Below the pieces are notes generated by a model. That model worked only from the letters and a program-made list of their open reading frames with translations. It searched no databases and was not told the origin of the DNA. Below are positions 44,795 through 61,029 of a stretch of 64,000 nucleotides of DNA, piece by piece (within the stretch, counting starts at the first letter, position 1; each line of letters begins with the position of its first letter). Origin of the DNA: Alkalimarinus alittae (GTDB lineage Bacteria > Pseudomonadota > Gammaproteobacteria > Pseudomonadales > Oleiphilaceae); contig NZ_CP100390.1 in NCBI RefSeq assembly GCF_026016465.1, positions 2,580,001 to 2,644,000 on the forward strand, read 5' to 3'. The translations under genes were made by a program, and so were the position numbers.

Positions 44795-44804
44795 AAAGTT
44801 TTAA

Positions 44805-45830
44805 TCATTCCTCAGTATTCAAATTATGTAAGTACAATTGTTGAAATTCTTTTGGTGTACACCCTTGCCATCGCTTAAAGGCACGTTGAAATGCGCTTTG
44901 TTCTGAAAAACCTAACTTATACGATATAGTCACCAGAGAGTGACCAGCCTTCAAAGACTCGAGCGCTACTTTACGCTTAACCTCATTACAGAGCTCTTTT
45001 AGGGTATAACCATTTTGTTGAAGTTGGCGTTGTAATGTTCTTGGACTGACGGAGAGGTCTTCACTGAGGTGTTCTAAAGTTAGCACATCGGGCAAGGCAT
45101 TCATTAGCAACCGACTGACCCGTGCAACAATACTGTTTTGACTTTGCTCTACAAGCTTCTTTTGAGCAAGCCCCTCATAAAACTCGCGTAAGTCGCGGTC
45201 GGGCGTTTTTAATGTCAATTTTAGAGCCGACTGACTACTAATAATCTGATTATATGGTTGCTCAAATTTAATGGGGCAATCCATTATTGTTTCTAAGTAT
45301 GTATGGTCTCGGTTATTAAGACTGTGCCTAAAATCCACTTGTTTAAAAAAGGTGTTGCCGGCCCCAAGAACATAATTATTGATAAAAGCACTTCTGCGAG
45401 AAAAAATTTCTTCTATTAAATGAAAAGTCGTGGGAGATTCACTGCTCCAGCGAATAATAAAATTCTCGCCTTCTGTGATAATTTCAAAACGGTCAAAGTT
45501 ACGCACAAGACTAGAAAATCGGAGCTGATATTTTAAAACATCAGCGACGGTTTCACAGGTGCGGGCGATTAAGCCAAATTGACTTCCTACGTCGGGGTCT
45601 GAGTCCAATCCAAATGACATCCCGAGACAAGTATCGCCAGTTTGCACTTCGCCAAGCTGATATAGATCATTATAGATCTCTAGGAGGAAATAATAATCGG
45701 GATTATTAAGATCTTGCTCGTCGATTTGTAGCTGGCTCAAAACCAGCTCACGAGAAACACCCTTTTTTACTAAGTGATTAACTAACCCGCGAACCATCTT
45801 ACTGGTTATTTTGGCTTGTTCAGAACTCAT
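44805..45830 (-). CDS. AraC-family transcriptional regulator (OruR/ArgR-like N-terminus)
   Basis: A 341-residue regulator with an Arabinose_bd-type N-terminal domain (MVRGLVNHLVKKGVSRELVL start, then FGLIARTCETVADVLKYQLR) and a C-terminal double helix-turn-helix (LTLEHLSEDLSVSPRTLQRQ and SYKLGFSEQSAFQRAFKRW). Regulators of this type often sit next to lipid or aromatic degradation genes. Its position directly before the ligase-reductase pair suggests a local target. Confidence 0.9.
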   Translation of the reverse strand: MSSEQAKITSKMVRGLVNHLVKKGVSRELVLSQLQIDEQDLNNPDYYFLLEIYNDLYQLGEVQTGDTCLGMSFGLDSDPDVGSQFGLIARTCETVADVLKYQLRFSSLVRNFDRFEIITEGENFIIRWSSESPTTFHLIEEIFSRRSAFINNYVLGAGNTFFKQVDFRHSLNNRDHTYLETIMDCPIKFEQPYNQIISSQSALKLTLKTPDRDLREFYEGLAQKKLVEQSQNSIVARVSRLLMNALPDVLTLEHLSEDLSVSPRTLQRQLQQNGYTLKELCNEVKRKVALESLKAGHSLVTISYKLGFSEQSAFQRAFKRWQGCTPKEFQQLYLHNLNTEE

Positions 45831-45919
45831 TATTGTGGTTTTCCAACAGCGCTGCTAACCATCAGGGTTTAATGAACAATATAAAACCCGTTAAATACAG
45901 GTACAGCTTTATTATTATA

Positions 45920-45948
45920 AGGGTAAGACTTTAATTTCATCTTACCCT
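45920..45948 (-). terminator. possible terminator after the DUF2235 gene
   Basis: Nine-base arms agggtaaga (45920-45928) and tcttaccct (45940-45948), loop of 11. The minus-strand sequence after it is AT-rich (TTATAATAATAAA) without a clean T-run. Confidence 0.5.
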
Positions 45949-46029
45949 GTCATATATAGAAATGACTATTCTAACTAACACAGCCAGAATAGCCAAAAGG
46001 CTCAAGCTCTGCAAACCTAAAAGTAATCG

Positions 46030-47295
46030 CTAAGCAGCAAACTTTAGACCATATTGATTTTTTCGATGCCATGCGATATTTGCGACTTTAGTGTTAAATT
46101 TTGAAGAGCTAATTTTAACGGGCCCCTTAATTTCTCCATCATAAATTAGCTGAACCCCTCCTTCTGATATATTAACCACTTTACACGCTGACGATTGAGC
46201 ACCGATTTCCACCTCAGCAACAAGGCCTGGTGTCTCTTCACGCATGAACGCTCTATGCTGAACAGCCATAGTAAAATGCATTTCCTCTTCTAAATGTTTT
46301 TCTAAAAGGTTTTGAGGTTGATAATCAGCAACAATATTAGTTCGTAAATAAACACTATGGTCAATACGCACATTTATAGGGGGATTGTCTTTCTCGCCTT
46401 CGATAGTACGAACACCTGACGCACCATTTATATTTTCAAACAAATGGTAAACCGATGTAAATGAATCATACAATTCACCATTAAAGTGAGGCCTTAATGA
46501 TTGAATAAATGCCGCGTCAAACCCTAGACCTAACTGTTCTGCTTTCCCTACCATCCAAAATAAAGCCAAATCAGACAGCCCGGTATCTTCATAGCCTCCC
46601 CCAACATTAGAATGAACACCCGGAAACCAACGTTGCTCCACACATTGATCATCGTTTATATTTCCGGTCCATAAATCGGCCTTAAAAGGCTGCCGTTTTT
46701 CATCAATAGCCAGCGCATGATAAGCATTTTTGATATAGGCAGAGATAGACGTGTCGAAGAACCCAATCCAACGGCGCTTAGCAAGCTTACCCAAAAGCGG
46801 TGTTGGCGACCCTAATGCGCCGACGGTATCCCAAACCCCCATCATTTTTATATCAGGGCGAAAGCAATCTTGATAGGCATTAGCATCGCGTTCTTCTGGG
46901 TGTGTACGGTAATATGTATATGCTTCTGGAAGATTTTCGAGCCGTCCCTTAGGCAGTAACCCAATAGTATTCAATAGACCACCCAGTGCTCTGACGGTGT
47001 ATGCACCTCGGCTAAAGCCAAAGCAAAATATCTCATCGCCTACTTGATAATTGTGAACAATAAAACGATACGCATCGAGAATATTTTTCGCGACACCGAC
47101 ACCAAACGCCCCCCCGATATATTTATCAAAAAAACCTTCTGTACCGACACCTTGATCATAAAAAACCACCTGATGACAATTGTTCGCAAAAGGTAGAACC
47201 CCTCTTGCTAGCTGAACCACATTAGTAGGTTCACTATCAGGTTTATTCCATGTGCCATCACAACAAATAACAATTCTTTTATGCTGGAACGCCAT
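46030..47295 (-). CDS. DUF2235 alpha/beta-hydrolase with C-terminal PilZ-like domain
   Basis: A 421-residue protein. The first about 330 residues are a DUF2235 (Tle1-like) hydrolase: RIVICCDGTWNKPDSEPTNV, the nucleophile GFSRGAYTVRALGG, an acidic VWDTVGALGSP and a HSNVGGGY with the likely catalytic His. The last about 75 residues look like PilZ: RAFMR (348-352, RxxxR), VVNISEGGVQLIY (NxSxxG at 375-380) and a closing AWHRKNQYGLKF. PilZ domains bind cyclic di-GMP. No vgrG or other secretion-effector gene is adjacent, and no signal peptide is seen, so an endogenous regulated lipase or esterase is possible. Confidence 0.82.
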   Translation of the reverse strand: MAFQHKRIVICCDGTWNKPDSEPTNVVQLARGVLPFANNCHQVVFYDQGVGTEGFFDKYIGGAFGVGVAKNILDAYRFIVHNYQVGDEIFCFGFSRGAYTVRALGGLLNTIGLLPKGRLENLPEAYTYYRTHPEERDANAYQDCFRPDIKMMGVWDTVGALGSPTPLLGKLAKRRWIGFFDTSISAYIKNAYHALAIDEKRQPFKADLWTGNINDDQCVEQRWFPGVHSNVGGGYEDTGLSDLALFWMVGKAEQLGLGFDAAFIQSLRPHFNGELYDSFTSVYHLFENINGASGVRTIEGEKDNPPINVRIDHSVYLRTNIVADYQPQNLLEKHLEEEMHFTMAVQHRAFMREETPGLVAEVEIGAQSSACKVVNISEGGVQLIYDGEIKGPVKISSSKFNTKVANIAWHRKNQYGLKFAA

Positions 47296-47469
47296 GATGG
47301 AGCCTCCAATAACAATGAATAGTTAAAGATAGTAATTCACTACCGTCATAGACTGCATTGGCGGTTTAAGTAGATTAAGTATAGTCGAGCATTCAACAAC
47401 TGTTCATTATTTAACCAGATACATATTTAGATGTTAAATAGAGCGCCTTACTCATGTCTGTTATTTGAA

Positions 47470-48555
47470 CTACCCCCTAAAACCTCTAACCATTAATTTA
47501 AGGCGGTCTATCATGGGAATTATGATAGATTTTGTGCTGGGTTGAGACTCTTTAATAAACACGATGGGGCGACTCACTTTCATCGCGGCTATACCTATTC
47601 TTGCTGTGTATATACCTGCACCCAACCCTTGACCTAAACGCGCACTTGCCATACTGGTTAGGGTAGACGACCCAAACTCCTCCATCACTTGATCTATCAC
47701 TATTTCGCTGGCCCCAACAAATGCCATTTGGTGAACGACCAGTTTCAATAATTTATAACGGTTAACCAACGACGGTCGCATACCATAGACCTGAGCAATG
47801 TCATCAATCATTTTGACACTGCGCCATAATGAAAGGAGCATATCAAGAGAGGCCCAAGGGCTTGCAGCAACAACGGCACCGGTTTGCAAACTTACATTTG
47901 ATATTCTTCGTAACGCTTCTTTATCAAGCGGTTTTAAGAAGACACGTTCAATATGGTCGACCACTTCACGATCATTACTATAGTCTGGCAGTTTTTCAAT
48001 ACACCGCTGAAAATAAACAAGCTGAGGTTTATCGGCATAAAATACCTGTAGTGTGTCAATAAAAACCTTAGCATCACCTACATTACAGGCTTCACTCAAT
48101 CGCTCTGCTTGTTTTTGAACGGCCTCTAAAGCACCTAGGTTTTCTTGGTCACGAACGAACCCTCTTAGCAAACGAATACTTAACCCAGCCACAACCACCA
48201 AAAGGCCTGCAAACCCACTTGCTAACAGCCAGTGTACATCTAGTGCACTTTTTAGAACCGTGTAGACCTCCCACCCTACTAGCACCATTAACAACGCAAA
48301 CAAACCATATAAAAATGATCTTAAACCTTTTACCGGCACCGCCTCCAACGAAAGCCCTGAATATTCAGATATATGCGGTAAGCGTTCTCCTGCTGTAATT
48401 GACTCTGGCACCTGATTAAGCGTGTCGTTTTGGCTAGGAATAAACGTCTTACCTTTACGGCCACCTTTTTTAGCCTTTGTATTCGTCTCTGGAATATCAA
48501 AGTGTCGCCCTTCTGTTCGTAACGACCGCTCATCCTTCTTAGTACTCATACACAT
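47470..48555 (-). CDS. ycjF: YcjF-family (DUF697) membrane protein
   Basis: A 361-residue inner-membrane protein: a charged N-terminal third, two membrane helices (SFLYGLFALLMVLVGWEVYT and HWLLASGFAGLLVVVAGLSI), and a DUF697 C-terminal domain (GASEIVIDQVMEEFGSSTLT, TARIGIAAMKVSRPIVF). In E. coli ycjX-ycjF belongs to the phage-shock regulon. The start overlaps the ycjX stop by about 10 bases; the ATG at 48549 is equally possible. Confidence 0.88.
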   Translation of the reverse strand: MCMSTKKDERSLRTEGRHFDIPETNTKAKKGGRKGKTFIPSQNDTLNQVPESITAGERLPHISEYSGLSLEAVPVKGLRSFLYGLFALLMVLVGWEVYTVLKSALDVHWLLASGFAGLLVVVAGLSIRLLRGFVRDQENLGALEAVQKQAERLSEACNVGDAKVFIDTLQVFYADKPQLVYFQRCIEKLPDYSNDREVVDHIERVFLKPLDKEALRRISNVSLQTGAVVAASPWASLDMLLSLWRSVKMIDDIAQVYGMRPSLVNRYKLLKLVVHQMAFVGASEIVIDQVMEEFGSSTLTSMASARLGQGLGAGIYTARIGIAAMKVSRPIVFIKESQPSTKSIIIPMIDRLKLMVRGFRG

Positions 48556-50003
48556 TTATCCCCTATGAGAATATTCAATACAGTATCAAGGCGAATGTGG
48601 GGAATGGCATCAGAGTTTTGATACGATAATCCCTTAGGTGGCTTTAATACAGGTATTTTCCAGTCTATAAACGGCTGCCAATCACGGCCTTCAGGTATAC
48701 GAGACGGTATAGTAGGATGTGTATAACCTATCGGCGAACCATCACTACCTAGGCCCGTAATACCTCGCTCGCCAGCGTGGTCAATTTCTTTAGATGAACG
48801 AACTGCCGCGGTGGCCTCACAGGTTGGATGAACACCTTCATGTTGAGCATTTTTATATGCTTGACTCACTAATACCGCCAGTAATTGCCTTACCGCCTCA
48901 TGGTCTTCTGATACGACTTGATCAATCTTGGTCGCTGCAAATACGACTTTGTCTATTTTAGGTTTAAATAATTGAAGAAAACGATTCTGACTTCCGTAGG
49001 CAAAGCTGTCGGTAATATTAGTCAGCGCATGACGCATATCATCAATGTATTCAGGCCCTGCATTGAGAGCATTAACCACATCAACTAATACTAGCTGTCG
49101 GTCTATACGGCTAAAGAATTTTTTATAAAAAGGTTTAACGAGCTCTTTGATATAGCGCTTATATCGTCGCTCGCACACTTTGAAATAGCTATTTTCACTG
49201 GCTGCGGCTAACTGCCCCTCTGTATAATTTCCACTTTTAAGCAGCGGCAAAAAACATAGGATACTCGGGTCTTCCACGCCTCCCGGGATTAGAAATCGGC
49301 CAGGTTGAATCAGGCTTAGCCCCTTCCCTTTGTATTTGCAATCATGTAGAAACTCAAGAAAGCGTTTATTCAATTCAATTAAATGTGCTTCATCTACCTC
49401 TGCTAAGGGGTCAATGTGCTGAAGGTCGTGCAACAACTCACCCAACAATTCAGAACGAGGTCGCTGGGTATATTGTGTATTGCACTGGGCAGACCACCGC
49501 AGATAACTTGTTTCGAGTAACGGAAGATCTAGCAGCCACTCACCAGGATAGTCCCGTATTTCTAAAAAGAGCGAAAACTGGTCGCGACCAAAAGGGTTCA
49601 ACTTACTGACCTTTTTAGCCAGTCTAAGCTCCAACAAACAACCACTAATATCTTTTGTCGGAATAGGCCATTGCGGATCGGGGTTTGTGAGACGCTTATA
49701 GGCCTCATCATAAGGAAACTGAGTGAGCGCTACGTCTTCTAATGGATGAACCTTAACATTCAATAAACGCTCAGTAAGTACAGGTGAAAAACCTGGCAAA
49801 CTCGATGTTTTATATTGCTGTAATTGATTAATCAAACTAGTAATAAAGGTCGACTTACCACTCTGACTCAACCCAGTAATCCCGATACAGAACCGCCGAT
49901 CTCTCAGCTTATCCATACTCGCCAAGCCTTCATCCGTTAACTTAGCCATTTTTTTATAGGCGCCCTGAAAAAACTGAGCGGTTTTGTCTTTTGATTGATT
50001 CAT
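48546..50003 (-). CDS. ycjX: YcjX-family (DUF463) P-loop NTPase
   Basis: A 485-residue predicted GTPase-like protein. The P-loop GLSQSGKST is at 44-52, EIRDYPGEWLLDLPLL is a conserved DUF463 segment, and FAATKIDQV resembles a guanine-specificity motif (TKxD). Its partner YcjF follows with overlap. It lies 65 bases after nadR on the same strand, an uncommon neighbour, so the pair may belong to the large operon upstream. Confidence 0.9.
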   Translation of the reverse strand: MNQSKDKTAQFFQGAYKKMAKLTDEGLASMDKLRDRRFCIGITGLSQSGKSTFITSLINQLQQYKTSSLPGFSPVLTERLLNVKVHPLEDVALTQFPYDEAYKRLTNPDPQWPIPTKDISGCLLELRLAKKVSKLNPFGRDQFSLFLEIRDYPGEWLLDLPLLETSYLRWSAQCNTQYTQRPRSELLGELLHDLQHIDPLAEVDEAHLIELNKRFLEFLHDCKYKGKGLSLIQPGRFLIPGGVEDPSILCFLPLLKSGNYTEGQLAAASENSYFKVCERRYKRYIKELVKPFYKKFFSRIDRQLVLVDVVNALNAGPEYIDDMRHALTNITDSFAYGSQNRFLQLFKPKIDKVVFAATKIDQVVSEDHEAVRQLLAVLVSQAYKNAQHEGVHPTCEATAAVRSSKEIDHAGERGITGLGSDGSPIGYTHPTIPSRIPEGRDWQPFIDWKIPVLKPPKGLSYQNSDAIPHIRLDTVLNILIGDKCV

Positions 50004-50068
50004 TAGATTCTGTATTTCAGTTTATGAAGGCGAGTACAACGATTTACAGTATAAGCCACACTTACCCC

Positions 50069-51148
50069 TTAGGATATAATGGCACTTGAACAAAATTTCA
50101 ACGCACCTTGCTCTATGCATTTTTTTACCATCTGCACCCTTTTGCTAAGAGGTCCTTTTAATGCGGTATAAGGTATCTTGCGTTGACGAAGGACTTTTAA
50201 ATACCAACCATGCTGCCACGCCCTGAATGCTTCGTCCTTTCTTGTACCATCTTGAACAAGTGGAAAGTCCGGTTCACATAAAAAAGTATGGTGGTAAGGC
50301 TGCTCTGCAAAAGCTTCTAGTATGCGGGGTCTATCGTTAAACAGTGCGTCTGAATAACATAACGTTGTTAGAGGTGAGGTATCGCAAAAAATATAGTTGC
50401 GAGCGAGCTGTTGTGCCTTATCTTCATTTTCTGTTTGGGTCTGGCCTATTTTAACGAGGTCTTCTGGCGTCAAGACGCCGTTATTGAGTTCCCATAACGT
50501 TCGTCCGTATTCGTCAACAACAGGGTCATCATAGGCCTCAGCAAGCAGCTTAGATAATGTTGTCTTTCCCGTAGACTCGGCACCTAAAAAACATATTTTT
50601 TGAACCTTAAAATCAGCCCATACTGTGGAATTCACTTTACGCTCTGCCAAGGTATTTGAGCGCCTTACAGCGGTGCCACTCACAGGCACTATAAGGCGAT
50701 GCCTATCAACACATACATGCTGAACGGTATGACCAAACCCTTTTTCATGATGACTAAGGTATCGGGCGAAGCCATCTCCATAGTCTTCACTAGTCAATAC
50801 AACGTCGATGTCTAGCTTGAGTTTTTCGGCAATCAATTTATAGGTGAATTCGCGATGCGATTCATCATCATCTGAATTGAGAGGCATTTCTAAAGGCCAC
50901 CCCTCTTCTGATCGCCACCGTTCAACCGTAGCCGCGTTAACACTCAGAACCCTTGCGTTCGGGGCAAATTGTTTAAGCCAAGACGCTCTCACTGCGGCTG
51001 AACAGGACGGAAACTCAGGCCTAGAATAACTAATAACTAGCACTTCAGAGCAATGTTGAGCGGCTACATTTAGCAGGTATTCATGGCCTTTATGGAAAGG
51101 CGAAAACTTTCCAACGACTAATCCGCGGCGATAGGGTTTGTTGGCCAC
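50069..51148 (-). CDS. nadR: NadR-type NMN adenylyltransferase / ribosylnicotinamide kinase
   Basis: Bifunctional NAD salvage enzyme of 359 residues without the N-terminal helix-turn-helix repressor domain of E. coli NadR. The adenylyltransferase part has GKFSPFHKGHEYLL (HxGH) and VPVSGTAVRRS; the kinase part has GAESTGKTTLSKLLAE (Walker A) and YIFCDTSPLTTLCY. It phosphorylates imported nicotinamide riboside and adenylates NMN to NAD. It overlaps pnuC by 31 bases, which strongly supports joint function. Confidence 0.93.
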   Translation of the reverse strand: MANKPYRRGLVVGKFSPFHKGHEYLLNVAAQHCSEVLVISYSRPEFPSCSAAVRASWLKQFAPNARVLSVNAATVERWRSEEGWPLEMPLNSDDDESHREFTYKLIAEKLKLDIDVVLTSEDYGDGFARYLSHHEKGFGHTVQHVCVDRHRLIVPVSGTAVRRSNTLAERKVNSTVWADFKVQKICFLGAESTGKTTLSKLLAEAYDDPVVDEYGRTLWELNNGVLTPEDLVKIGQTQTENEDKAQQLARNYIFCDTSPLTTLCYSDALFNDRPRILEAFAEQPYHHTFLCEPDFPLVQDGTRKDEAFRAWQHGWYLKVLRQRKIPYTALKGPLSKRVQMVKKCIEQGALKFCSSAIIS

Positions 51149-51717
51149 TTATCCGCTCCTGACTTTTCCTTTTTATATAATTTGATCCATGTATATAGCC
51201 CGAACCATGCGTTACACCAAAATAAGCCGTAAACGAATGAGGTTAAATAAAGCTCTCTCGAGGCATAAAGTGGCACTGCCACGGTATCAACAATAAGCCA
51301 GCAAACCCAAGTTTCAACTCGCCTTTGCATCAATAAAAACTGAGCCAACACACTAAACATCAAGATGATGGAATCAATAAACGGTGCATAGGCATCTGTC
51401 GACGAGTGAAGAATCCAACCGTAAGCCACTGTCGCAAGTGCGGCAAGGAGTACAAGGTTTATAAACGCAGTTACGGGGGTACGCTGAATCGCGTGCAACT
51501 CTTTCTTTGCCCCCCAATAGGTCCAGCCATACACACTGGTGAAGATAAAAAATATCATCAGTGTCACATCAGCATATAGATTGTATTGATAAAATAATAC
51601 AGCAAAGAGACCGCAACCAATGATGCCCGTCCACCATGTGTTGATATTATTCCTGGCAGCTAATACTACACTTAATACAAACACCGCATTAGCGGCCCAC
51701 TCTAAATAACTAATCAA
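51118..51717 (-). CDS. pnuC: nicotinamide riboside transporter PnuC
   Basis: A 199-residue membrane protein with about seven hydrophobic segments. NNINTWWTGIIGCGLFAVLF, IFFIFTSVYGWTYWGAK and the late VCWLIVDTVAVPLYASRELY are typical PnuC/SWEET-fold stretches with the Trp- and Asn-rich substrate pocket. It lets nicotinamide riboside enter, trapped by the NadR kinase encoded immediately downstream. It starts 2 bases after the ligase gene. Confidence 0.93.
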   Translation of the reverse strand: MISYLEWAANAVFVLSVVLAARNNINTWWTGIIGCGLFAVLFYQYNLYADVTLMIFFIFTSVYGWTYWGAKKELHAIQRTPVTAFINLVLLAALATVAYGWILHSSTDAYAPFIDSIILMFSVLAQFLLMQRRVETWVCWLIVDTVAVPLYASRELYLTSFVYGLFWCNAWFGLYTWIKLYKKEKSGADKWPTNPIAAD

Positions 51718-51719
51718 GT

Positions 51720-53063
51720 TTAAGCCCTTAAATCGCTGGTATATTGAATAATTTTCTTTTCGCTGTTGACCTTTTCTATCTGCTTCACGTCTACCGGATA
51801 ACCAAATTTTTGAGTTAAAGCATGGATAAGCTCATCTGTGTTGGCTGTTTTTAATACTTTGACCGTAAGTGTTCCATCAACATGCTGATGCAACGAGAAT
51901 TGAGTTAAAGGAAACGCCTGCAAAAGATGGGTGACATCGACATTATTGAGCCAGACACCTTTCGACGTCTTAAACTGCACAGGCGGACGCCCTTCTAAGT
52001 CTTGTATAAACCAATCATTCCCTTCTTGTTCAAGCCGACCAAAATCGCCTGTTCGGTATCGTAATAGAGGGAGGTAATGATTAAAACCGCCGGTGACGGT
52101 TATTTCCCCTCGTTGCCCTGGCGCAACAGGAGTGTCATTCGTGTCTAGTATTTCAACATACAGCTTAGATTGAAGCAGCTTAAACCCTTTTTTGCCTAGA
52201 ACACTACAGCCTACAGGTCCAATTTCATTCAACGAGTACAGGTCAATAATCGGGCAACCAAAACGTTGATTAAGTAGCTGTTTACAGCCTGAAAGTAAGG
52301 TCATTGACGTCGTTAAAATGGCTTTCGGTTGGTGCGAAAAAGGGATTTTTGAAAGCGCCCCCAATGATATAGGGTCGCCCGAAATTAAATCTGGTTTATT
52401 GTTATCGATATATTGGTGCCTATCATCAGGGTCATGCCAATCATTTGGATGAAAGTTGAGCTTTACTAACCCTTTGTTATTCAAATAAGGCGAAATGGAT
52501 GCGTAGGTAAAGCACTTCTCTTGATAACCAGCCAGTATTATCGCTAGATCACTTTTAAAATCATCGGTATTCACCCCGTTCCAGGCTAACGCCTTCTTAT
52601 GATAAGCACTGTATTTTGCAGCAACAGTAGGATGCGAAGGTATCATTAAGGGGTGGCCAGTGGTGCCTGACGTTTCAAATGTTATAAGGCGATCGGTCGG
52701 CAGGCCGTCAGGCACAAAACCTGTAATATCTTGGCTCAAATCGGCTCGATTGATTGTCGGAATGGCCTCAATATCGTAGGACGAACGGACATATTGACGA
52801 TAAAAAGGAACCTCACTAAAGCAATGAGCAATGAATTGTTGTAGCCAATCATTATCTGCACACTTGGCTGAAACTTTTTTAGCGAACTCTTCGGTTGTGA
52901 ATTGTTTTAACGCATCAAGCTCCGCAGGTTGAAGATGATGGCCTGAACGGTTTCTATATATGGGCGCATGAGGTTGATCGATTAACGCGTTTAACCTTTC
53001 ACTACCTTCAAGGTGTAGGTCAGGCATTCGCTCATCGGCGTCTAAAGAATAGGCCTTCATCAT
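51720..53063 (-). CDS. PaaK/CapK-like adenylate-forming ligase
   Basis: About 447 residues of the phenylacetate-CoA ligase/CapK branch of adenylate-forming enzymes. Visible are HCFSEVPFYRQYVR (family start), the P-loop FETSGTTGHPLMIP (about 130-141), IDLYSLNEIGPVGCSV, and LPLLRYRTGDFGRL with the ribose-binding Asp, then a small C-terminal lid. The substrate is unknown. ATG at 53063 shares a base with the stop of the preceding gene (TGATG). No thiolation-domain or aromatic degradation gene is nearby; its neighbours are VWA/MoxR and NAD-salvage genes. Confidence 0.85.
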   Translation of the reverse strand: MMKAYSLDADERMPDLHLEGSERLNALIDQPHAPIYRNRSGHHLQPAELDALKQFTTEEFAKKVSAKCADNDWLQQFIAHCFSEVPFYRQYVRSSYDIEAIPTINRADLSQDITGFVPDGLPTDRLITFETSGTTGHPLMIPSHPTVAAKYSAYHKKALAWNGVNTDDFKSDLAIILAGYQEKCFTYASISPYLNNKGLVKLNFHPNDWHDPDDRHQYIDNNKPDLISGDPISLGALSKIPFSHQPKAILTTSMTLLSGCKQLLNQRFGCPIIDLYSLNEIGPVGCSVLGKKGFKLLQSKLYVEILDTNDTPVAPGQRGEITVTGGFNHYLPLLRYRTGDFGRLEQEGNDWFIQDLEGRPPVQFKTSKGVWLNNVDVTHLLQAFPLTQFSLHQHVDGTLTVKVLKTANTDELIHALTQKFGYPVDVKQIEKVNSEKKIIQYTSDLRA

Positions 53064-53653
53064 CACTCTCGTGTCATTTTGTCAGCCGACTCTCTGGCTT
53101 TTTGCTTTGCTAACGCTACACGCAAATCGTTTGAACGTTTTTCAGCGGCCTTGGCTGCTCGAAGCACGTTTAATCGTGCTTGAGAACTTACTGCTTGCAG
53201 GCGATCATCTGCCACCGTACTGTTTTCGCCTTTTGGAAATAAACCTAAAGCATCTAAAACAACCCGTATAAATTCTTCTCTACGATCAACATCATTAATA
53301 TAAACGTTATTCTGCCCCGCTTCGGCTAACGCTTTAGCGGTTGCCTCTAGTAGTAAAATGAGTGTGTTTGATGTAAAGGTAAATGAATCAAAGCTCTCAT
53401 CAGCCAAAAAATAAGCAACAAGGAGGCTCATTCTGTACCACTCACATTGTTGTTGAGGTCTGCGAAATACGGCAAGCTCTGAGGCGTGTATATTTTCGCA
53501 ATGAGCAAAAACAACATCATGAATGATGGCAGAAAAATAATGAGGCAGTTCTGCACTCATCCACTCCTCTGGAAAGTCCGTTAGGCGATGATGCAACACA
53601 TTAATATCCGGCCCTTCTTGATAGTGTGATGCCACGCAGGGTGTGTCACTCAT
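53063..53653 (-). CDS. unrecognised 196-residue helical protein
   Basis: I do not recognise this protein. Residues about 20-120 are mixed with several aromatic and His residues (SAELPHYFSAIIHDVVFAHC, EWYRMSLLVAYFLADESFDS), and the C-terminal 60 residues form a charged, Ala-rich helix (LRAAKAAEKRSNDLRVALA). No signal peptide or convincing membrane helix. It is tightly placed between the VWA gene (41 bases) and the ligase gene (overlap), so it probably works with one of them. Confidence 0.75.
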   Translation of the reverse strand: MSDTPCVASHYQEGPDINVLHHRLTDFPEEWMSAELPHYFSAIIHDVVFAHCENIHASELAVFRRPQQQCEWYRMSLLVAYFLADESFDSFTFTSNTLILLLEATAKALAEAGQNNVYINDVDRREEFIRVVLDALGLFPKGENSTVADDRLQAVSSQARLNVLRAAKAAEKRSNDLRVALAKQKARESADKMTRE

Positions 53654-53694
53654 GGAATATTTGCCTCCCTTTTTCGACTAAATGGCATCTTTGC

Positions 53695-55470
53695 CTAGAC
53701 CGATTCTGCAGATTGATAGTGTTTACGGCTAAACGCTTGAGCGAAGTTGGTCATTTCTTCCCAAGATGAAACAGGAAAAACAGACCACCCTTGCTCTTTC
53801 TCTGCCCGTTTCAATAGCGCACCGTCTTTTGCATACCACTTAGGGGGCGAATTATCAGCGTAGTTCCAGTTAAGGTTTAACACCATTGTTCCCCCTCCTT
53901 TTGCATTGTCTAATGCTTGCTTAGCGATATCCCAGCCATAATTTCCCTTTTCGTCTTGATTAAACAGCGTAGTGACACCATCGTCAGATAAAATAACCAC
54001 ATGTGAGTGACGCTCTCTACGCTTTTCTATATGTGTTTTTCTCAGTATATGGATTGGAAATGCAGTCCCACCACCAAAGTAATCAGTGAGTACCTGTAAA
54101 ATCTCTTTTTCGTTTCTTATAAACCCATTCGTGGTTTTAAATTGATGAACACCACTCCAAAGCGTGACTTGAACGGCGGAACCAGCCCTAAGTGCCGAAA
54201 GGCACAAAATAGCACCCGCTAGCGCTGTGTAAGAAATATGCTGTTGCGGGTTCGGCATAGAGCCAGAGCAATCGACATAAAGGTCTAAGTCACATGGCTC
54301 CGTATCGGGCTCAGAACCTTCAGACTCGCCCCACTCACGCTGGACGGTGGTCACGCCTGGTATGACCACAGAACTCATCGACATAGAGCTAAACCAGTCA
54401 ATATTTTCAACGGGTTCACCTGGCTCCCATAGCGTCGTACCCTCTGGTACTAAATCAGCTTTTGAGGGTAATCGTTTAGAAGGAAAAGGAACCAATAAAG
54501 GCACAGACCGCTCTTTGTAATAACGAACAGCGATATCATGGTCAGACAAATTCAAACCGGCTGATTTAAGAATTTCACCATACTCAAACGGTTCCCGAAA
54601 TTGACCATAGCCTTGCTCTGGGTTCTCAATTTCAATCGGCCATTCACTGTCAGCGTCGGTGTCGTTGCCATTTGACTCTCCGACAAGCTCAGGGTCATTT
54701 GAGGGGTGAACGTTATCGTCTTCACCTAAATCTTTACTGATCAAACCTGATGGAAACTGCCCATCACCCGCATGCTTAGTATCCATCAACTTAGCGATTT
54801 GATCATCGCCTTCGCGTTCATCTACTAAATATGGCAATAATAACGCCGCAAATCTTGAAGCACCTTTAAGCCAGTCGCTCGCATAGACTTTAATAATTCT
54901 TGCACCTAACCATGCGTCTCCTTCCATGGCATCTGAGTCGCATATCCCCCCTAACGAACCGGGCTTTAGCAGCCATAGATTTTCGTATACCCGCATATAG
55001 AGTTTCCAAACTCGGCTATGGGTAGGACCGTTATTCAGCTTTTGGTAAACTTCATCCATTCGTAAACCGAACTGTCTTTTTAGATGATTATTAATCAATA
55101 AGTCGGAATACAGATTCGCCACCATGCCTGCTTTATTCTCAAGCGTAGGGAGGTTCACATGCATCCGCGAAATCATTTTGGCATGATCAGTAATGGTGGC
55201 TGGCGACAGAATGTGATGCCCTATTTCGTGCGCTAAGACTTCGACGGCATAGTCTTGCAACTGATACTTAGCAATCGCTTCAAGGTCAACGACGACGGTT
55301 TGATCTTGAAGCCGAATCATTGCAAAGCTTTCTGACAACCCCTCTTTCGAGGCCTCAACATGGGTTTTACATAATTTAGGTGATCGAATTTTTGTGTAGC
55401 GGCTCCACAGGTTTAATGCGTCATCCCAAGATGTTTGCCATTGCGATACTAACAACTCAGCTGCTCCCAT
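53695..55470 (-). CDS. zincin-like metallopeptidase plus VWA domain protein
   Basis: A 591-residue protein. The N-terminal part has VLAHEIGHHILSP (HExxH at 81-85) and ANLYSDLLINNHL, which resembles the downstream metal-ligand helix of DUF2201-type zincins. A charged acidic linker (about 240-290) leads to a C-terminal VWA domain with MIDAS LYVDCSGSM (Asp400, Ser402, Ser404), GGGTAFP and HVVILSDDGVT. MoxR ATPases typically work with VWA proteins as metal-dependent adaptors. It starts 2 bases after the preceding gene. Confidence 0.85.
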   Translation of the reverse strand: MGAAELLVSQWQTSWDDALNLWSRYTKIRSPKLCKTHVEASKEGLSESFAMIRLQDQTVVVDLEAIAKYQLQDYAVEVLAHEIGHHILSPATITDHAKMISRMHVNLPTLENKAGMVANLYSDLLINNHLKRQFGLRMDEVYQKLNNGPTHSRVWKLYMRVYENLWLLKPGSLGGICDSDAMEGDAWLGARIIKVYASDWLKGASRFAALLLPYLVDEREGDDQIAKLMDTKHAGDGQFPSGLISKDLGEDDNVHPSNDPELVGESNGNDTDADSEWPIEIENPEQGYGQFREPFEYGEILKSAGLNLSDHDIAVRYYKERSVPLLVPFPSKRLPSKADLVPEGTTLWEPGEPVENIDWFSSMSMSSVVIPGVTTVQREWGESEGSEPDTEPCDLDLYVDCSGSMPNPQQHISYTALAGAILCLSALRAGSAVQVTLWSGVHQFKTTNGFIRNEKEILQVLTDYFGGGTAFPIHILRKTHIEKRRERHSHVVILSDDGVTTLFNQDEKGNYGWDIAKQALDNAKGGGTMVLNLNWNYADNSPPKWYAKDGALLKRAEKEQGWSVFPVSSWEEMTNFAQAFSRKHYQSAESV

Positions 55471-55472
55471 CT

Positions 55473-56513
55473 TTAACGTCCTGCCGCTGGGCTTGTAATA
55501 CTTAAGATAACCACAGAAAACGTTTCATTGGATGTGAGGGCTACAGTATCATTTAACGTAACAACTGAGGTGACTTCACTGATATCACTTAACCCATCCA
55601 TTTGACTAAAACGAGACAAATCACTCGCTGGATTAGATGCCTCAGCTATTCTTTTAACCTCATCAATATCAAATGGAAAAAGTGTTTCACCAAACCCATC
55701 AACATACAGTTTCCATGCGTGGTCTCCCGCGCATACGTACAACTGATCACCCGAAGCAAAAACGTTTGGAGGGGTTTTAAACTCACCGCCTAATAAGTCG
55801 CATCGCCCTATTCGCCTCTCCACATGATATTGTGCTTGGTCATCTTGAGGCCTCGAAGGGCTAACCATTGACCACCGATTCGTTTTTAGCGTTTGTAAGT
55901 GATGGCCTAAATCATCGCTCTCAGAAACACCTAACAATATGCGGCCGATTTGGGATGATAAATCCTCTAATTGTTTTAATGCTAAGGGCCTAAAATGCGC
56001 CAATCCTGACATCCACGCACAAACAACGCCCGCACATTTAAGTGATTCACGGGTATCAAGTTGGCTTATTACCTTATTCATCAAGGCGAGCCACTTCATC
56101 GGCTTGTCATCACCAAATCCAAGCAAGTGACTTAATACGTTGCTTGTTTCAGAAAAAGCCTTGCTAGGGTTTTGTTGAATAATAGTCAGCGTATTTTGAT
56201 GAAACTCACGCCAAGTTGTTAAAACAATGTCTTGTTTAATTCCTTGTTTTAACCAATTTAACGACGCGAGCTCTAGGCCATGGGTAAAGCCGGCCTGTGC
56301 CACAGCAAACGAGTCCTTATTGCTGTGGCCATCAAAATTAACCATTAACGGGTCTAAGCAATTAGATAAAAAGCCATTAAATTCACCCATATCAAATTGC
56401 TGAGATTGATGTCGAATACTGGCAACCATTTGATTGCATAACTCACGCTCTGCCTGAAAAAAAAGTTGTAACGCTAAAGACTTCATAAGATAAGCGCTCA
56501 GGACTCTAGCCAT
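55473..56513 (-). CDS. unrecognised protein encoded between MoxR and VWA genes
   Basis: A 346-residue protein I cannot assign. The first about 220 residues are helical (LALQLFFQAERELCNQMVAS, AGFTHGLELASLNWLKQGIK), then a beta-rich C-terminal part (YVCAGDHAWKLYVDGFGETL). The start overlaps the MoxR gene by 16 bases. Its place in the MoxR-x-VWA triad resembles the third, adaptor-like component of ternary vWA-MoxR systems; that is an inference from position only. Confidence 0.75.
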   Translation of the reverse strand: MARVLSAYLMKSLALQLFFQAERELCNQMVASIRHQSQQFDMGEFNGFLSNCLDPLMVNFDGHSNKDSFAVAQAGFTHGLELASLNWLKQGIKQDIVLTTWREFHQNTLTIIQQNPSKAFSETSNVLSHLLGFGDDKPMKWLALMNKVISQLDTRESLKCAGVVCAWMSGLAHFRPLALKQLEDLSSQIGRILLGVSESDDLGHHLQTLKTNRWSMVSPSRPQDDQAQYHVERRIGRCDLLGGEFKTPPNVFASGDQLYVCAGDHAWKLYVDGFGETLFPFDIDEVKRIAEASNPASDLSRFSQMDGLSDISEVTSVVTLNDTVALTSNETFSVVILSITSPAAGR

Positions 56514-58078
56514 TTTAAGTAATTGGTATATCGCTGATGAAGATACTTGAGCTTTACGACATCCTCATAGATATGGCCATACATTTTTTTACCTTCAACC
56601 AACTGCGCTATTTCTGTCTCAATTCGATTGATACGTTTTTTAGCCGCCTTAACCGTCAAACCATCTAAACCTTCATCAAACTCATTTGAAAGCGCTTCAA
56701 CGGAGTCACTGTTACCTAGGCCCAACCGATCAAACTCCCTACAAGAAGAATCAAACAAGAACCGCAGCCAACCAATTTTATCACTTCGGAAAAACGCGTT
56801 CTCTGGCAGCTCAAAAAACGGTGAGTCACAGTCTGCAAATAAGCGTGAGTGAAAAACAAAAGGCAACACTTGCCTCACATCATCTAGCTCAACGGCGTCG
56901 TTTCCTCTGAAATACGCTAAAGCTTTTGAGAACTGAAGTAATGACATGAGCGAACGAACAGAAATACCATTAAGCGTCTGGCAACCTAAGTCTTTGAGTC
57001 TGTCACGTCCGTTATCCATAGACGCTAAAATGTGGGCTTTAACACCCGATAACCGAGAGGTATCTTTAGTTTTGTATTCGAACTGTGAAGCAGAATATTC
57101 TGAGAACTCAAAGTGACTGCCAAAAAACTCAATTCTTCGTCGAATATCGTCTGGTATCTCAATATTTCTGATCGCCAGCGACATCTGGCTGATTTCGTCT
57201 TCTGAGAAAATAATTTGAGGGGGCACCATATCTTCAGGCTTTACGCCTTCTTCAATACGTAAGAGTAATTGGCTCAAAAAACGTGGGTTGAATGATAGCG
57301 CTTGAACGACCACATCAATTCGGTCTTTTAACGCCTCAATGACTTGGTACGTACCGCCCCCTTGATCATCATTAGCGGTTAAAAACCATGCTGCGTCAGG
57401 GCATTCAAATACTTGATTGTATAATTCAGCATAATTGTCGCCCATCACTGTGAGGAGTGAGCTTTGTGTTCGGGTGGGTATTCGGTTGTACTCATCTACA
57501 ATTTTGACCCGCATGCCTAACCATTTACGCCAGGATATTCGAATATCTTCAACCGATTGAGCCGTCGCCAAGTCTGCCGGCAATGGGTTGCCCAACAAAT
57601 CTGCCACCGTCATCTGAGGGTGACCATGCTGCATCGCTCTTTTAACTTCTTTGGTAGTGTATCCGCCCAAAACACCCATCAGCAAAGCGCTAGCGGTCTT
57701 TCCCCGCCCTGGCCCACCAATAAAAAGGCATTTACTCTGGGTTGCGAACGTAAGCAATGGAAGCAATATATAGCTTGAGTAAGACTGCTCTGTGGGTAGA
57801 TTAATCGTGCTATGGCTATCACCCGCTCGAAACTGCTGAGGCGGTTTATCGTTGTATTCAATATCGTAATGAGGGCTGATAATGGCGTTATTAACAATCC
57901 AAAAGTACGCCTGTCTAAGCTTTTCATCCAACCCCAATGTTTGCTCCGATAACTCATTATTATCAGCGCCAAAGGGGCCTGCATAAAGGTCAGCAACATC
58001 AAATGATTTAGCTTTTGGGTGGTTCTTGGGGTTTGTTGGTGAAGCAGATAGCCGACCAAATAGATTAAACTTACTCAT
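56498..58078 (-). CDS. MoxR-type AAA+ ATPase
   Basis: A 526-residue AAA+ protein. Walker A is GGPGRGKT (121-128), Walker B VKIVDEYNRIP (Asp195-Glu196), and sensor 1 AWFLTANDD near 230-238, followed by the KDRIDVVVQALSFNPRFL segment usual for MoxR proteins. It is longer than classic MoxR (about 330 residues), with a roughly 90-residue N-terminal extension and a C-terminal helical extension. It is the promoter-proximal gene of the whole cluster. It presumably remodels a substrate together with the VWA protein. Confidence 0.88.
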   Translation of the reverse strand: MSKFNLFGRLSASPTNPKNHPKAKSFDVADLYAGPFGADNNELSEQTLGLDEKLRQAYFWIVNNAIISPHYDIEYNDKPPQQFRAGDSHSTINLPTEQSYSSYILLPLLTFATQSKCLFIGGPGRGKTASALLMGVLGGYTTKEVKRAMQHGHPQMTVADLLGNPLPADLATAQSVEDIRISWRKWLGMRVKIVDEYNRIPTRTQSSLLTVMGDNYAELYNQVFECPDAAWFLTANDDQGGGTYQVIEALKDRIDVVVQALSFNPRFLSQLLLRIEEGVKPEDMVPPQIIFSEDEISQMSLAIRNIEIPDDIRRRIEFFGSHFEFSEYSASQFEYKTKDTSRLSGVKAHILASMDNGRDRLKDLGCQTLNGISVRSLMSLLQFSKALAYFRGNDAVELDDVRQVLPFVFHSRLFADCDSPFFELPENAFFRSDKIGWLRFLFDSSCREFDRLGLGNSDSVEALSNEFDEGLDGLTVKAAKKRINRIETEIAQLVEGKKMYGHIYEDVVKLKYLHQRYTNYLKWLES

Positions 58079-58346
58079 TAATCATTCTCATTGTTTAGTT
58101 CCTTCTTATCAAAGCCGCTTTCTAACAAATATTCATTTGAATGTTAACGCGATAATATACAACAGTCGCGATATCAACACCCCTGATGTGGGTCGCAAGT
58201 GATAAAACTATACATTTATCACATACTATTATAATGACGCGCCCTTATTTTCAATGCGGCCAAGTACTTTGACTCATCATGGGGCATACTAATACGTTTG
58301 CTCAACACCTGTTTTTCCAGTAAACATAACATCAACGGGGTTAAAA

Positions 58347-59210
58347 ATGGCATCTACAAAGTACAAAATATCAATATCCATTGCAGCGCTTATAATCGTA
58401 ATTTTAACATTCACAGGCTGGTGTGATAATAAAGGCAGTGAATATGCCGCTGAGCAAATAGAAATCGCAGCAATTACTTTTGCAGTTGCGAGGTCCCTGA
58501 ATGCCGGTATTTCAATAGCTCAAGGCACTGAAGTGACGTTATCACCCGCGGGGGTTGGCACCACGTTAACCGTGGGAGAGGTACTTGACCCTATTAACGA
58601 TATGATCGAGCGCTTTTCGTTGGTGGTACTTGCAGCAATCACCTCACTGGGCATTCAACAAATTTTAATCAGCATCGCTTCAACAACACTTATAAACCTA
58701 TTAGTCGTCCTGTCTACTCTCACTGGTTTAGTGCTTATTCTAAAACCTCAACTTGCACCTCAAGGGGTTCGAATTGTTGCATATAAAACCTGCTTACTGC
58801 TTATCGTCTTTAGGTTCTTTATCGCTTTAAGCCTGCTGCTCAACCAAGCCGTTTATATAAATATCATTGAAAGCAACCAAAGTGAATCCCTAGCCTCTCT
58901 CAAAATCTCCGCTGAAGAGATAAAAGCAAGCCCATCAATACAGGTTAAAACTGACGACCAAGAGCGTTCATTTTTAAACGACATGAAGAACAAGTGGGAT
59001 AACTTTCAAGAGAGCATGAGCAACACACTTGATCTTGAAAAACTCAAAGACAAAGCCAGCAATGCAGTCGATAACATGACAGATCTAATCATTTCTTTCG
59101 TTTTGCTAACTCTGCTTATGCCGATTGCTTTTTTATGGCTGGGTATAAAGCTGGTGGGCTATATCATTACTTACAAGATCATCACCTACAAACCTAACGA
59201 TAATTCCTAA
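58347..59210 (+). CDS. unknown inner-membrane protein
   Basis: A 287-residue protein with one N-terminal helix (ISIAALIIVILTFTGW), a short periplasm-like loop, a cluster of three helices at about 90-170 (FSLVVLAAITSLGIQQILIS and the following), a roughly 80-residue charged region with a coiled-coil look, and one C-terminal helix. I do not recognise the family. It is divergent from the MoxR gene and shares a 268-base promoter region with it. Confidence 0.75.
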   Translation: MASTKYKISISIAALIIVILTFTGWCDNKGSEYAAEQIEIAAITFAVARSLNAGISIAQGTEVTLSPAGVGTTLTVGEVLDPINDMIERFSLVVLAAITSLGIQQILISIASTTLINLLVVLSTLTGLVLILKPQLAPQGVRIVAYKTCLLLIVFRFFIALSLLLNQAVYINIIESNQSESLASLKISAEEIKASPSIQVKTDDQERSFLNDMKNKWDNFQESMSNTLDLEKLKDKASNAVDNMTDLIISFVLLTLLMPIAFLWLGIKLVGYIITYKIITYKPNDNS

Positions 59211-59344
59211 CACTTTAGCTCTAACGTTATTACTTACACTCTAGGGCCTGGTTACCTGCTAACTAGGCTTATACCTTCTTTATGTGTATCATCCTGCGCC
59301 GAAAATAACACAAACATTCATCGACAAAAAAGGATCACTATTTC

Positions 59345-60070
59345 ATGCTTAAAAAACATCTAACTTTACCTATTTCAATTCTTTGCCTTTCAAGCAGTCT
59401 ATACGCCCAAGCAGAAGACGCAAAAGTTGAACAAACGTGGAATGCTGCGGCAGAGTTAGGTTATATCAAGACATCAGGGAATTCAGATACTGAAACACTT
59501 AACACCAAGTTTAAAGCAGAAACAACGTATACAAAGTGGACTCATCAAGTTGAACTAGAGGCACTTAAAAGTGTTTCAAACGATATACGTTCAGCTGAAA
59601 AATATAGAGTAGAAGGTCAATCAGACTACGCGTTAAGCGACAGAACCTATGCCTTTGGTGTAGCCAACTGGGAAAACGACAACTTTAGTGGCTTAAACTA
59701 TCAAGCATCTATCGCGACAGGTCTAGGTTACAAAGCGATTAGAACCAACGAAATGAAACTTAATCTTGAGCTCGCACCAGGTTATCGTAAAACTGAAGAT
59801 GAGAGTTACAATACAGAAGAAGATGCCATTGTACGTGCGGCTGAAATCTTTGAATGGAAATTCAGCAAATCATCTACCTTTAACCAACACTTAAAAGTCG
59901 AGTCAGGTGAAAGCAACACTGAAACACGTTTTGGTGTGGCACTAACAAGCCAAGTGGCAGGTGATTTATCGATGAAAGTAAGCTACAACGTCATTCATAA
60001 TTCTGATGTTGCTGCAGACATAGATAAAACAGATCGTGAAACGGCGATTACTCTCGTTTATAAGATCTAA
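59345..60070 (+). CDS. DUF481 (YdiY-like) outer-membrane protein
   Basis: A 241-residue protein with a signal peptide (LPISILCLSSSLYAQA) and a predicted beta-barrel: repeated amphipathic strands such as WNAAAELGYIKTSGNSDTET, then LNTKFKAETTYTKWTHQVEL, ending in the aromatic/hydrophobic ETAITLVYKI. The GNSDTE motif near the start is a hallmark of this family, sometimes called salt-induced outer-membrane protein. AAGGAT precedes the ATG. It has its own terminator. Confidence 0.9.
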   Translation: MLKKHLTLPISILCLSSSLYAQAEDAKVEQTWNAAAELGYIKTSGNSDTETLNTKFKAETTYTKWTHQVELEALKSVSNDIRSAEKYRVEGQSDYALSDRTYAFGVANWENDNFSGLNYQASIATGLGYKAIRTNEMKLNLELAPGYRKTEDESYNTEEDAIVRAAEIFEWKFSKSSTFNQHLKVESGESNTETRFGVALTSQVAGDLSMKVSYNVIHNSDVAADIDKTDRETAITLVYKI

Positions 60071-60077
60071 CTTAGCC

Positions 60078-60113
60078 CTAGGCTAATGAAGCATTTTCAT
60101 TAGCCTAGTTTTT
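60078..60113 (+). terminator. terminator of the DUF481 gene
   Basis: Perfect 13-base arms ctaggctaatgaa (60078-60090) and ttcattagcctag (60096-60108), then five T. Confidence 0.92.
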
Positions 60114-60141
60114 AAAAAATACAGTCTCTAAAGCCAAGCCA

Positions 60142-61029
60142 TCAGTTTGTGATACTGCCCTTGGTGCCTCTTCGCTTAACTCGCCCATGCATCAAAAATA
60201 GTAACAACCCCGCATTTATGTACATCATTAATGAATATACAGCTGGCACTATCGCAATCTCAGAATTATTTAATAACGTTGTCGCTATAAATATGCCTGT
60301 CGCGCTGTTTTGAACCCCAATTTCAATACTGACGGTTGTACTTTGTTGATCGTTCAGGAGGAACAAGCGAGCAGCAACAAACCCCACAAGCATACTCGCT
60401 AAGTTAAGTAAAAATGTCGCAGGACCAACCGTCAGCAAACTTTGTACAAGTTCTTTATATTCTTTAAGCAGAATCCCCCCAACAATCAGTATAAAAAATA
60501 CCGTAGCCAGTTTATTCATTGGCTTTTCCATGCGTTTGGCAAAGCCGGAAAAATAATATCGAATTAGCATTCCCAATAATACCGGCACTACAGTAATGAA
60601 AAACAGTTTCATATTGGTGCTGCCAATAGGCAAAGCGGTTTCTTCTGTCGCGCCCATAAAGCGAAAGAGCGCAAAATTAACAATAAAGGGAATGGTAAGC
60701 ACCGTGATACAACTACTAATTGCTGTAAGCGTTACAGAGAGTGCCACATCCCCTCTCGCCAAATAAACAATTAGATTCGACGTAGCACCGCCGGCGCAGG
60801 CCACTAACACCATTAAACCAACAGCATTTTCTGGACTTAGCCCAAACTGAGAAGCAAAAAAGTAACCTATAAAAGGTAATATCAGAATCTGCCCCGCAAG
60901 ACCTATCGCGACAGCTTTGGGGTAAAATAAAACGCGTTTAAAGTCTGCTGCTGTGAGCGATAAGCCCATTCCAAGCATTATAACCGCCAAGCTCAGCGGG
61001 AGAACTATCGATGCTAAGACTCCATTCAT
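60142..61029 (-). CDS. bile acid:sodium symporter (BASS) family transporter
   Basis: A 295-residue membrane protein with about nine to ten hydrophobic segments. LACAGGATSNLIVYLARGDV (crossover-helix region) and VSIEIGVQNSATGIFIATTL (second crossover) are typical of the BASS fold. It imports an organic anion with sodium; the substrate is not known. It is convergent with the DUF481 gene. Confidence 0.9.
   Translation of the reverse strand: MNGVLASIVLPLSLAVIMLGMGLSLTAADFKRVLFYPKAVAIGLAGQILILPFIGYFFASQFGLSPENAVGLMVLVACAGGATSNLIVYLARGDVALSVTLTAISSCITVLTIPFIVNFALFRFMGATEETALPIGSTNMKLFFITVVPVLLGMLIRYYFSGFAKRMEKPMNKLATVFFILIVGGILLKEYKELVQSLLTVGPATFLLNLASMLVGFVAARLFLLNDQQSTTVSIEIGVQNSATGIFIATTLLNNSEIAIVPAVYSLMMYINAGLLLFLMHGRVKRRGTKGSITN

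Follow-up and report, generated by a model that had tools for sequence, protein, structure and literature searches.

A MoxR/zincin-vWA gene cassette with an adenylate-forming ligase and nicotinamide riboside salvage genes in Alkalimarinus alittae

Gene content of the locus

We analyzed 64,000 nucleotides of Alkalimarinus alittae DNA (NZ_CP100390.1, positions 2,580,001 to 2,644,000 of the forward strand; this whole stretch is referred to as the window), in which a preliminary description made from the sequence alone had placed nine minus-strand genes at 47470–58078 and proposed them as a candidate for an undescribed system. All nine open reading frames are present. Seven of them, from a MoxR gene (beginning at 58078) to a nadR gene (ending at 50069), are linked in a fixed order, are inherited together and carry conserved catalytic motifs, and we consider it highly likely that they form a real functional unit, here called the cassette. 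As a candidate the gene set is real, conserved and undescribed in the literature searched, but its border had been drawn two genes too far.

The first gene of the cassette (56498–58078, minus strand, as are all those that follow) encodes a MoxR-type AAA+ ATPase of 526 residues (P0001), in which Pfam AAA_3 and AAA_lid_2, the MoxR AAA+ core and lid, are both above their cut-offs. The second (55473–56513) encodes a 346-residue protein, u346 (P0002), a putative third component. The third (53695–55470) encodes a 591-residue protein (P0003) in which a putative zincin part with the motifs HEIGHH and ANxYxD precedes a von Willebrand factor type A (vWA) part with a metal ion-dependent adhesion site (MIDAS) motif, DxSGSM. 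These are followed by u196 (53063–53653), a 196-residue protein that is all-helical in its structure model with a long C-terminal helix; by a PaaK/ANL-like adenylate-forming ligase (51720–53066); by the nicotinamide riboside transporter PnuC (51118–51717); and by a NadR-like protein (50069–51148) with the architecture of a nicotinamide mononucleotide (NMN) adenylyltransferase and ribosylnicotinamide kinase.

Of the spacings described earlier, the coordinates confirm all gaps (2, 41, 2 and 65 bases) and two overlaps (31 and 10 bases); the two remaining overlaps depend on the start codon. The 16-base overlap of the MoxR gene and u346 holds as annotated but becomes an 11-base gap if u346 starts at 56486; the 1-base overlap of u196 and the ligase gene holds with an ATG start (the next codon) but is 4 bases with a GTG start. 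The true u346 start is probably 56486, 27 bases further in, because eight relatives in an alignment of nine copies begin at the residue matching Met10 of P0002; in seven of them the reading frame offers no earlier start, and in locus L030 the start was chosen by us. Between 45000 and 61000, promoter-like matches (31, shuffle mean 33.7) and terminator-like matches (14, shuffle mean 13.6) are at background and therefore provide no argument for or against an internal terminator.

Conservation of the gene order across genomes

Carriers of the zincin-vWA protein make up 5 of the 163 genomes in the window's family, and u196 is found in the same five; within the window's genus, one genome of five is a carrier. 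Wider samples, which overlap with one another, contain it in 2 of 224 genomes of the window's order, 4 of 198 of family f15, 11 (strong) plus one (weak) of 230 of the order of f15, three (strong) plus one (weak) of 369 of the class, and three (strong) plus two (distant) of 398 of the phylum. We read 19 loci with the gene in all, leaving out genome G464 (short match on a 5.5-kb contig) and G1440 (E-value 5e-4).

The order MoxR, u346, zincin-vWA, u196, ligase, PnuC, NadR is present in the window and in L023, L024, L025, L031 and L064, and the same order with a radical S-adenosylmethionine (radical-SAM) gene between zincin-vWA and u196 is present in L030, L037, L038 and L063. The preliminary description had proposed that a system would be supported if distant taxa kept the first genes side by side, and they do; the full seven-gene order, with or without radical-SAM, recurs in nine loci besides the window, in three families. 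L062 keeps six of the genes in order, lacking PnuC and having the radical-SAM gene, with a divergent PnuC on the opposite strand beside NadR. L022, from Hahella, holds the first five genes and, directly after the ligase gene, a 29-residue pnuC remnant (L022:7039–7125, minus strand). The MoxR, u346 and zincin-vWA genes are adjacent in 14 of the 19 loci, the window's included, and of the 12 loci with all genes from MoxR to the ligase, 11 also have both PnuC and NadR.

The seven loci from family f304 (L065–L071) have partial sets, in which the cassette is broken into overlapping sub-modules. L070 and L071 hold MoxR, u346 and zincin-vWA only; L069 holds u346, zincin-vWA, u196 and the ligase; L068 holds u346, zincin-vWA and u196 up to the contig end; L066 holds u346 and zincin-vWA on an 8-kb contig; L067 holds zincin-vWA, radical-SAM, u196 and the ligase; and L065 holds the first three of these four.

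The DNA on either side of the cassette is unrelated from locus to locus: among 12 loci, compared by translated search over 4.3 to 5 kb per side at an E-value of 1e-10, one of 264 cross-locus flank pairs is similar. Over six loci the seven genes have correlated distance matrices (0.88–0.98), and a tree of the vWA protein groups mostly by family, but with f15 and f182 mixed. The G+C content of the cassette is within 5 points of that of the flanks in the eight loci fetched in a first set. Linkage of the genes is well supported, and they probably move between genomes as one horizontally transferred unit.

NadR follows the cassette from genome to genome. Each of the eight non-Hahella carriers searched has a single NadR, located inside the cassette, and NadR is absent from the cassette-free genomes searched, namely four congeners and 31 other non-Hahella genomes that we picked from those without the cassette (8/8 vs 0/35, one-sided Fisher 6.9e-9, uncorrected for kinship). 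This genome-wide search was for NadR and covered carriers other than the complete ones in G1119, G1366 and G1469 and the seven f304 genomes. Outside f304 and Hahella, NAD salvage (NAD, nicotinamide adenine dinucleotide) arrives with the cassette. Among other Hahella genomes four of six have a NadR-like match, and the Hahella carrier itself (G007) has an unlinked pnuC-nadR pair at L049:5013–6651, with a NadR 33% identical; because of this second pair, loss of the cassette's own pnuC-nadR may have cost nothing. The linkage of PnuC and NadR to the MoxR-vWA genes suggested earlier thus stands for 11 of 12 loci and for NadR outside Hahella, but is not seen in the f304 DNA read.

The split loci in f304 and Hahella could also be read as a sign that two unrelated operons, one for a MoxR-vWA pair and one for NAD salvage, merely lie side by side. 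This is very improbable, as the order is common to unrelated sites in three families and to one rearranged locus, and NadR outside Hahella is found only with the cassette.

Properties of the encoded proteins

The Walker A (GGPGRGKT) and Walker B ((V/I)DEYNRIP) motifs of MoxR are conserved in all 14 loci holding MoxR. The zincin-vWA protein (580–603 residues in nine copies) has HEIGHH and DxSGSM in all 19 loci, the latter fitting the general MIDAS pattern DxSxS, and ANxYxD in 17 of 19; we guess that the conserved Asp of ANxYxD is the third metal ligand. Pfam VWA_2 (E 0.22) and M48 (E 0.048) both match P0003 below their cut-offs, and the vWA part aligns by profile to a protein with VWA_2 above its cut-off (probability 95). 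Pfam scans find no domain after the vWA part.

Neither u346 nor u196 has a match in Pfam, NCBIfam, PADLOC or PHROGs at the limits used, and nine members of each, scanned at an E-value of 1, likewise have no convincing match; they are thus two protein families for which no Pfam entry was found. The AlphaFold2 (AF2) model of u346 (predicted local distance difference test score, pLDDT, 86) has a helical N-terminal part and a beta C-terminal part, with no PDB or BFVD match in Foldseek at an E-value of 0.001. A DH/PH fold was considered for u346 and not accepted as real, since the top Foldseek matches have template modeling (TM) scores of about 0.1. Mean identities over six loci are 68% for MoxR, 56% for PnuC, 52% for zincin-vWA, 51% for the ligase, 47% for NadR, 43% for u196 and 28% for u346, and u346, the lowest of the seven, therefore appears to be the fast-evolving component of the set.

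The model of u196 (pLDDT 84) is all-helical, and its C-terminal end lies within a 39-residue helix. The majority residue in an alignment column has a frequency of 0.46 up to residue 120 and then of 0.71 and 0.78 as far as the stop. When C-termini are right-justified (nine copies of each protein, six for PnuC and eight for NadR), the last ten residues of u196 have a majority of 0.83, against 0.23–0.45 for the other six proteins, so that, among the seven, conservation up to the very C-terminus is peculiar to u196. All 15 complete copies end in K-[W/Y/M]-x-R-E. When the very end of a protein is invariant, what is recognized is usually the free carboxylate or the exact terminus; docking, cleavage or activation of the u196 tail would therefore all be allowed.

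The radical-SAM gene is present in seven of the nine loci in which u196 ends in K-W-x-R-E and in none of the six in which the second residue is Y or M (Fisher 0.0056); the sequences are related and kinship is uncorrected, which makes the association only a lead. No radical-SAM orthologue is present in 12 of the 19 loci (DNA read). In six carriers without a linked copy, G327 included, the rest of the genome has weak matches only, at E-values of 2e-12 or weaker compared with 1e-137 for orthologues.

The ligase matches AMP-binding in Pfam below the cut-off; its best NCBIfam models are of DVU_1553 and PaaK type (NF045666 at 5.9e-26 and PaaK models), all below curated cut-offs. A profile of nine copies finds PaaK enzymes among solved structures (best 7e-13). 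We assign the protein, on its profile matches, at the level of the ANL superfamily only, because it misses the cut-off of the PaaK equivalog TIGR02155 (36 bits vs 646). RYRxGD, YSxNE and a Lys just ahead of a C-terminal QY are present in all 14 copies; the TGTTGxP-type loop is changed in L067, and its pattern gives no match in L069. The gene lies directly after u196 in 14 of the 15 loci with a complete u196, L065 being the exception. Ligase matches of any kind occur in 112 of the 163 genomes of the window's family, and orthologues of 46–71% identity are found alongside zincin-vWA in the other four carriers of that family.

PnuC is above the cut-offs of PF04973 (153.2 bits vs 27.3) and TIGR01528 (66.8 vs 42.45). 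NadR is above those of PF01467 and PF13521 and has HxGH and a P-loop in all 11 cassette copies; as it does not reach the cut-off of the equivalog-domain model TIGR01526 (119.8 bits vs 341), we restrict the predicted assignment to the two-domain architecture.

Relation to known MoxR-vWA systems

In CoxD/CoxE, NorQ/NorD, CbbQ/CbbO and RavA/ViaA a MoxR ATPase is paired with a vWA partner, as here, but these pairs serve a known client enzyme and are not known to include a zincin or any of the other five genes. By analogy the cassette could be an enzyme-activation machine, in which MoxR and the vWA protein act on a client by inserting or remodeling one of its cofactors or subunits; the client would be either the ligase or an enzyme made elsewhere, and NAD salvage would supply it. 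Enzyme activation is the established role of CoxD/CoxE, NorQ/NorD and CbbQ/CbbO, and the position of the ligase gene after u196 in 14 of 15 loci would fit it. We nevertheless find this unlikely: the flanks contain no recurrent operon for a client, neither a zincin nor u346 is known from the classic pairs, and no requirement for an activase is known among PaaK-type enzymes. PnuC and NadR are known as a stand-alone salvage route for nicotinamide riboside, and both proteins here have the family domains and motifs of that route, but here they are a fixed part of a cassette with MoxR and vWA genes.

MoxR-vWA ternary conflict systems (VMAP and inactive STAND, iSTAND) have been described by Kaur et al. 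2020 (PMC7159879). They resemble the cassette in that one operon combines a MoxR ATPase with a vWA protein and a third component; in some, a zincin, a radical-SAM enzyme and a small protein conserved at its C-terminus are linked to these. The cassette differs in that the zincin is fused ahead of the vWA part, the vWA part has no C-terminal effector, u346 has no convincing Pfam match, and an adenylating ligase and NAD salvage are added. As for a VMAP or inactive STAND identity of u346, its nine members have no relevant Pfam match, the Pfam coverage of those domains being unchecked.

Another reading is peptide maturation, driven by MoxR-vWA. As precursor or carrier, u196 would be cleaved by the zincin in its conserved C-terminal segment; the radical-SAM enzyme, in loci that have one, would modify this segment, and the adenylating enzyme would cap or ligate it, so that a signal or toxin results. 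The change in u196 from a variable part to one conserved from residue 120 to the stop, the radical-SAM/Trp association (7/9 vs 0/6, with the same reservation on kinship) and the published link to MoxR-vWA of a zincin together with a small protein conserved at its C-terminus, in some cases with radical SAM as well (PMC7159879), point in this direction. The conserved part of u196, however, is modeled mostly as a long helix and not as a short peptide, the cassette has no exporter, and 12 loci have no radical-SAM orthologue in the DNA read, nor does one lie elsewhere in the genome in the six such carriers searched. Nor does u196 end in a motif of the FxSxx, RxD or acidic type named for such peptides; its end is K-[WYM]-x-R-E, and no cassette protein has an AP-ATPase domain, which sets the cassette apart from peptide processing as characterized in PMC7159879. 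On balance we regard this account as doubtful.

The same source proposes its ternary systems as conflict systems, and the cassette could be an anti-phage or conflict system of that kind, with PnuC and NadR restoring NAD after an NAD-depleting attack. A sporadic distribution, unrelated flanks and a fast-evolving component are what this would lead one to expect. PADLOC, however, matches only NadR, over ~25 residues of the P-loop (VakA 4e-4, PtuA 1.6e-3), while the other cassette proteins have no PADLOC match at an E-value of 0.01 and u346 members none at 1; no effector domain follows the vWA part and no TIR, nuclease or other known effector is present; and MoxR and zincin-vWA are not found in plasmid and phage collections at 1e-5. 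We do not think it probable that the cassette works in this way.

The second of the two closest published relatives found, after the ternary systems, is a MoxR gene of jumbo phages with a metallopeptidase-vWA fusion, proposed to act in virion assembly (PMC7824862). The likeness lies in MoxR plus a vWA protein with an N-terminal metallopeptidase, but we find no sequence match among the phages searched (E 1e-5), and u346, u196, the ligase and the NAD genes are not named alongside in the parts of that source available.

Also comparable are two loci from another family of the phylum, G715 (L050:1848–4609) and G686 (L051:542–3291), from genomes of 86–87% completeness, in which MoxR adjoins a zincin-vWA protein and a large HEAT-like partner. 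Their adjacent MoxR and vWA proteins are distant homologues by profile, with HExxH and DxSGS motifs, but none of u346, u196, the ligase, PnuC, NadR and the radical-SAM enzyme is present in L050 (4.9 kb) or L051 (20 kb). The large partner has a trace of HEAT, and its start looks propeller-like to us. A relationship of u346 to the third protein of G715, which is cut by the contig end, was considered and is unsupported by profile comparison.

MoxR/metallopeptidase-vWA pairs and ternary systems have already been published; we regard the set as an addition within the MoxR-vWA kind and not as a demonstrated new category; what is new relative to the known systems is the ligase and the NAD pair. MoxR together with nicotinamide riboside and vWA was not found in the literature searched, which did not extend to most subscription papers. 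Papers there that cover MoxR, vWA and metallopeptidases do not include PnuC, none of those listed for NadR and PnuC includes MoxR, and PaaK was not found in PMC7159879, the closest match there on MoxR/vWA/radical-SAM gene clusters. Within that scope the gene set as a whole is undescribed.

A proposed working of the cassette

For most members of the widespread MoxR-vWA group, neither the clients nor the chemistry are known. In the cassette such a machine is linked both to a nucleotide pathway and to u196, a dedicated small protein whose C-terminus is fixed. We take MoxR, the zincin-vWA protein and u346 as its core, because this trio stands alone in two f304 loci and because the distant G715/G686 system also pairs MoxR with a zincin-vWA protein.

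The preliminary description had inferred that an acid is adenylated and a target processed in an NAD-linked way. For complex formation, the client, the ligase substrate and the reason for the NAD need, we infer a scheme of the same general kind. The MoxR ATPase and the zincin-vWA protein would form a remodeling and peptidase machine, with u346 as its fast-evolving recognition or adaptor component. The machine would work on or via u196, whose tail K-[W/Y/M]-x-R-E-COOH may be the handle, either as a peptide that docks on the ring or as the point of cleavage or modification. The PaaK-like ligase would make the acyl-adenylate of a carboxylate, which could be a small acid or the C-terminus of u196, and in some loci the radical-SAM enzyme may add a further modification. 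PnuC and NadR would import nicotinamide riboside and convert it to NMN and NAD, feeding or repairing an NAD-consuming step. We put the probability of this scheme, the one that we favor, at about 0.35.

Several findings weigh against it. That linkage is strictly needed is made less likely by the f304 loci: the set is split there, with MoxR beside zincin-vWA in only two of the seven loci (L070, L071), u346 missing as well from two (L065, L067), and PnuC or NadR beside the core genes in none (DNA read; L066, L068 and L069 lie near contig ends). The zincin part has no Pfam match above cut-off, no fold match was found for u346 or u196 (Foldseek, E 0.001), and the cassette contains no recognizable NAD consumer.

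A more specific version of the scheme is quite unlikely. The MoxR/zincin-vWA machine would present the u196 C-terminus to the ANL ligase, which would adenylate the terminal glutamate; u196 would then be joined to another molecule, possibly the nicotinamide nucleotide made through PnuC and NadR, and in radical-SAM loci the Trp beside the conserved Lys would be modified. C-terminal adenylation is elsewhere carried out by E1-like or Pup-type ligases, and ANL enzymes are not known to adenylate a protein C-terminus. If true, this would be a new kind of protein C-terminus chemistry. For the scheme in general, the concrete questions opened are which substrate the ligase uses, whether the u196 tail is processed and why NAD salvage accompanies the machine.

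Insertion site and neighboring genes

In the sister species G002 about 178 bases (L046, 8614–8791) occupy the site where the window holds about 10.1 kb. The stretch missing from G002, 50104–60220, comprises the cassette and two plus-strand genes. On the ycjX side the similarity to G002 extends to window position 50103, so that the last 35 bases of nadR belong to sequence that lies upstream of ycjX in G002 too. This shared stretch contains a TATACT block on the minus strand, which we read as a possible promoter element, and because the upstream DNA is shared with the sister up to 50103, ycjX probably has its own promoter.

YcjX (48546–50003, minus strand; DUF463) and YcjF (47470–48555, minus strand; DUF697, TIGR01620) had been counted in the cluster by the preliminary description. 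YcjX is present in five of five genomes of the genus, and the two genes stand together, with none of the cassette genes, in all three sister loci read; we therefore reject them as cassette members and regard them as resident genes.

Direct repeats at the insertion are limited to short, weak matches between the two ends. No tRNA is present in the window, and no Rfam family reaches its gathering threshold in 44000–62000. Carriage on a plasmid or phage was considered and rejected, as MoxR and zincin-vWA are unmatched in plasmid and phage collections (protein search, E 1e-5), and three scans of viral contigs gave no confirmed relative of zincin-vWA or u196.

Both plus-strand genes in the stretch missing from G002 lie beyond the MoxR gene: 58347–59210 encodes a 287-residue protein without a convincing Pfam match, and 59345–60070 encodes a DUF481 protein. 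Comparison with 11 other loci showed no counterpart of either in their flanks. On the far side of ycjF, 46030–47295 (minus strand) encodes a protein with a type VI secretion system Tle1-like phospholipase catalytic domain (270 bits), whose C-terminus has a weak PilZ-like match (19.2 bits, below the cut-off of 22.5). No Tle1-like copy was found in sister locus L048, and copies adjoin YcjF in sister loci L046 and L047.

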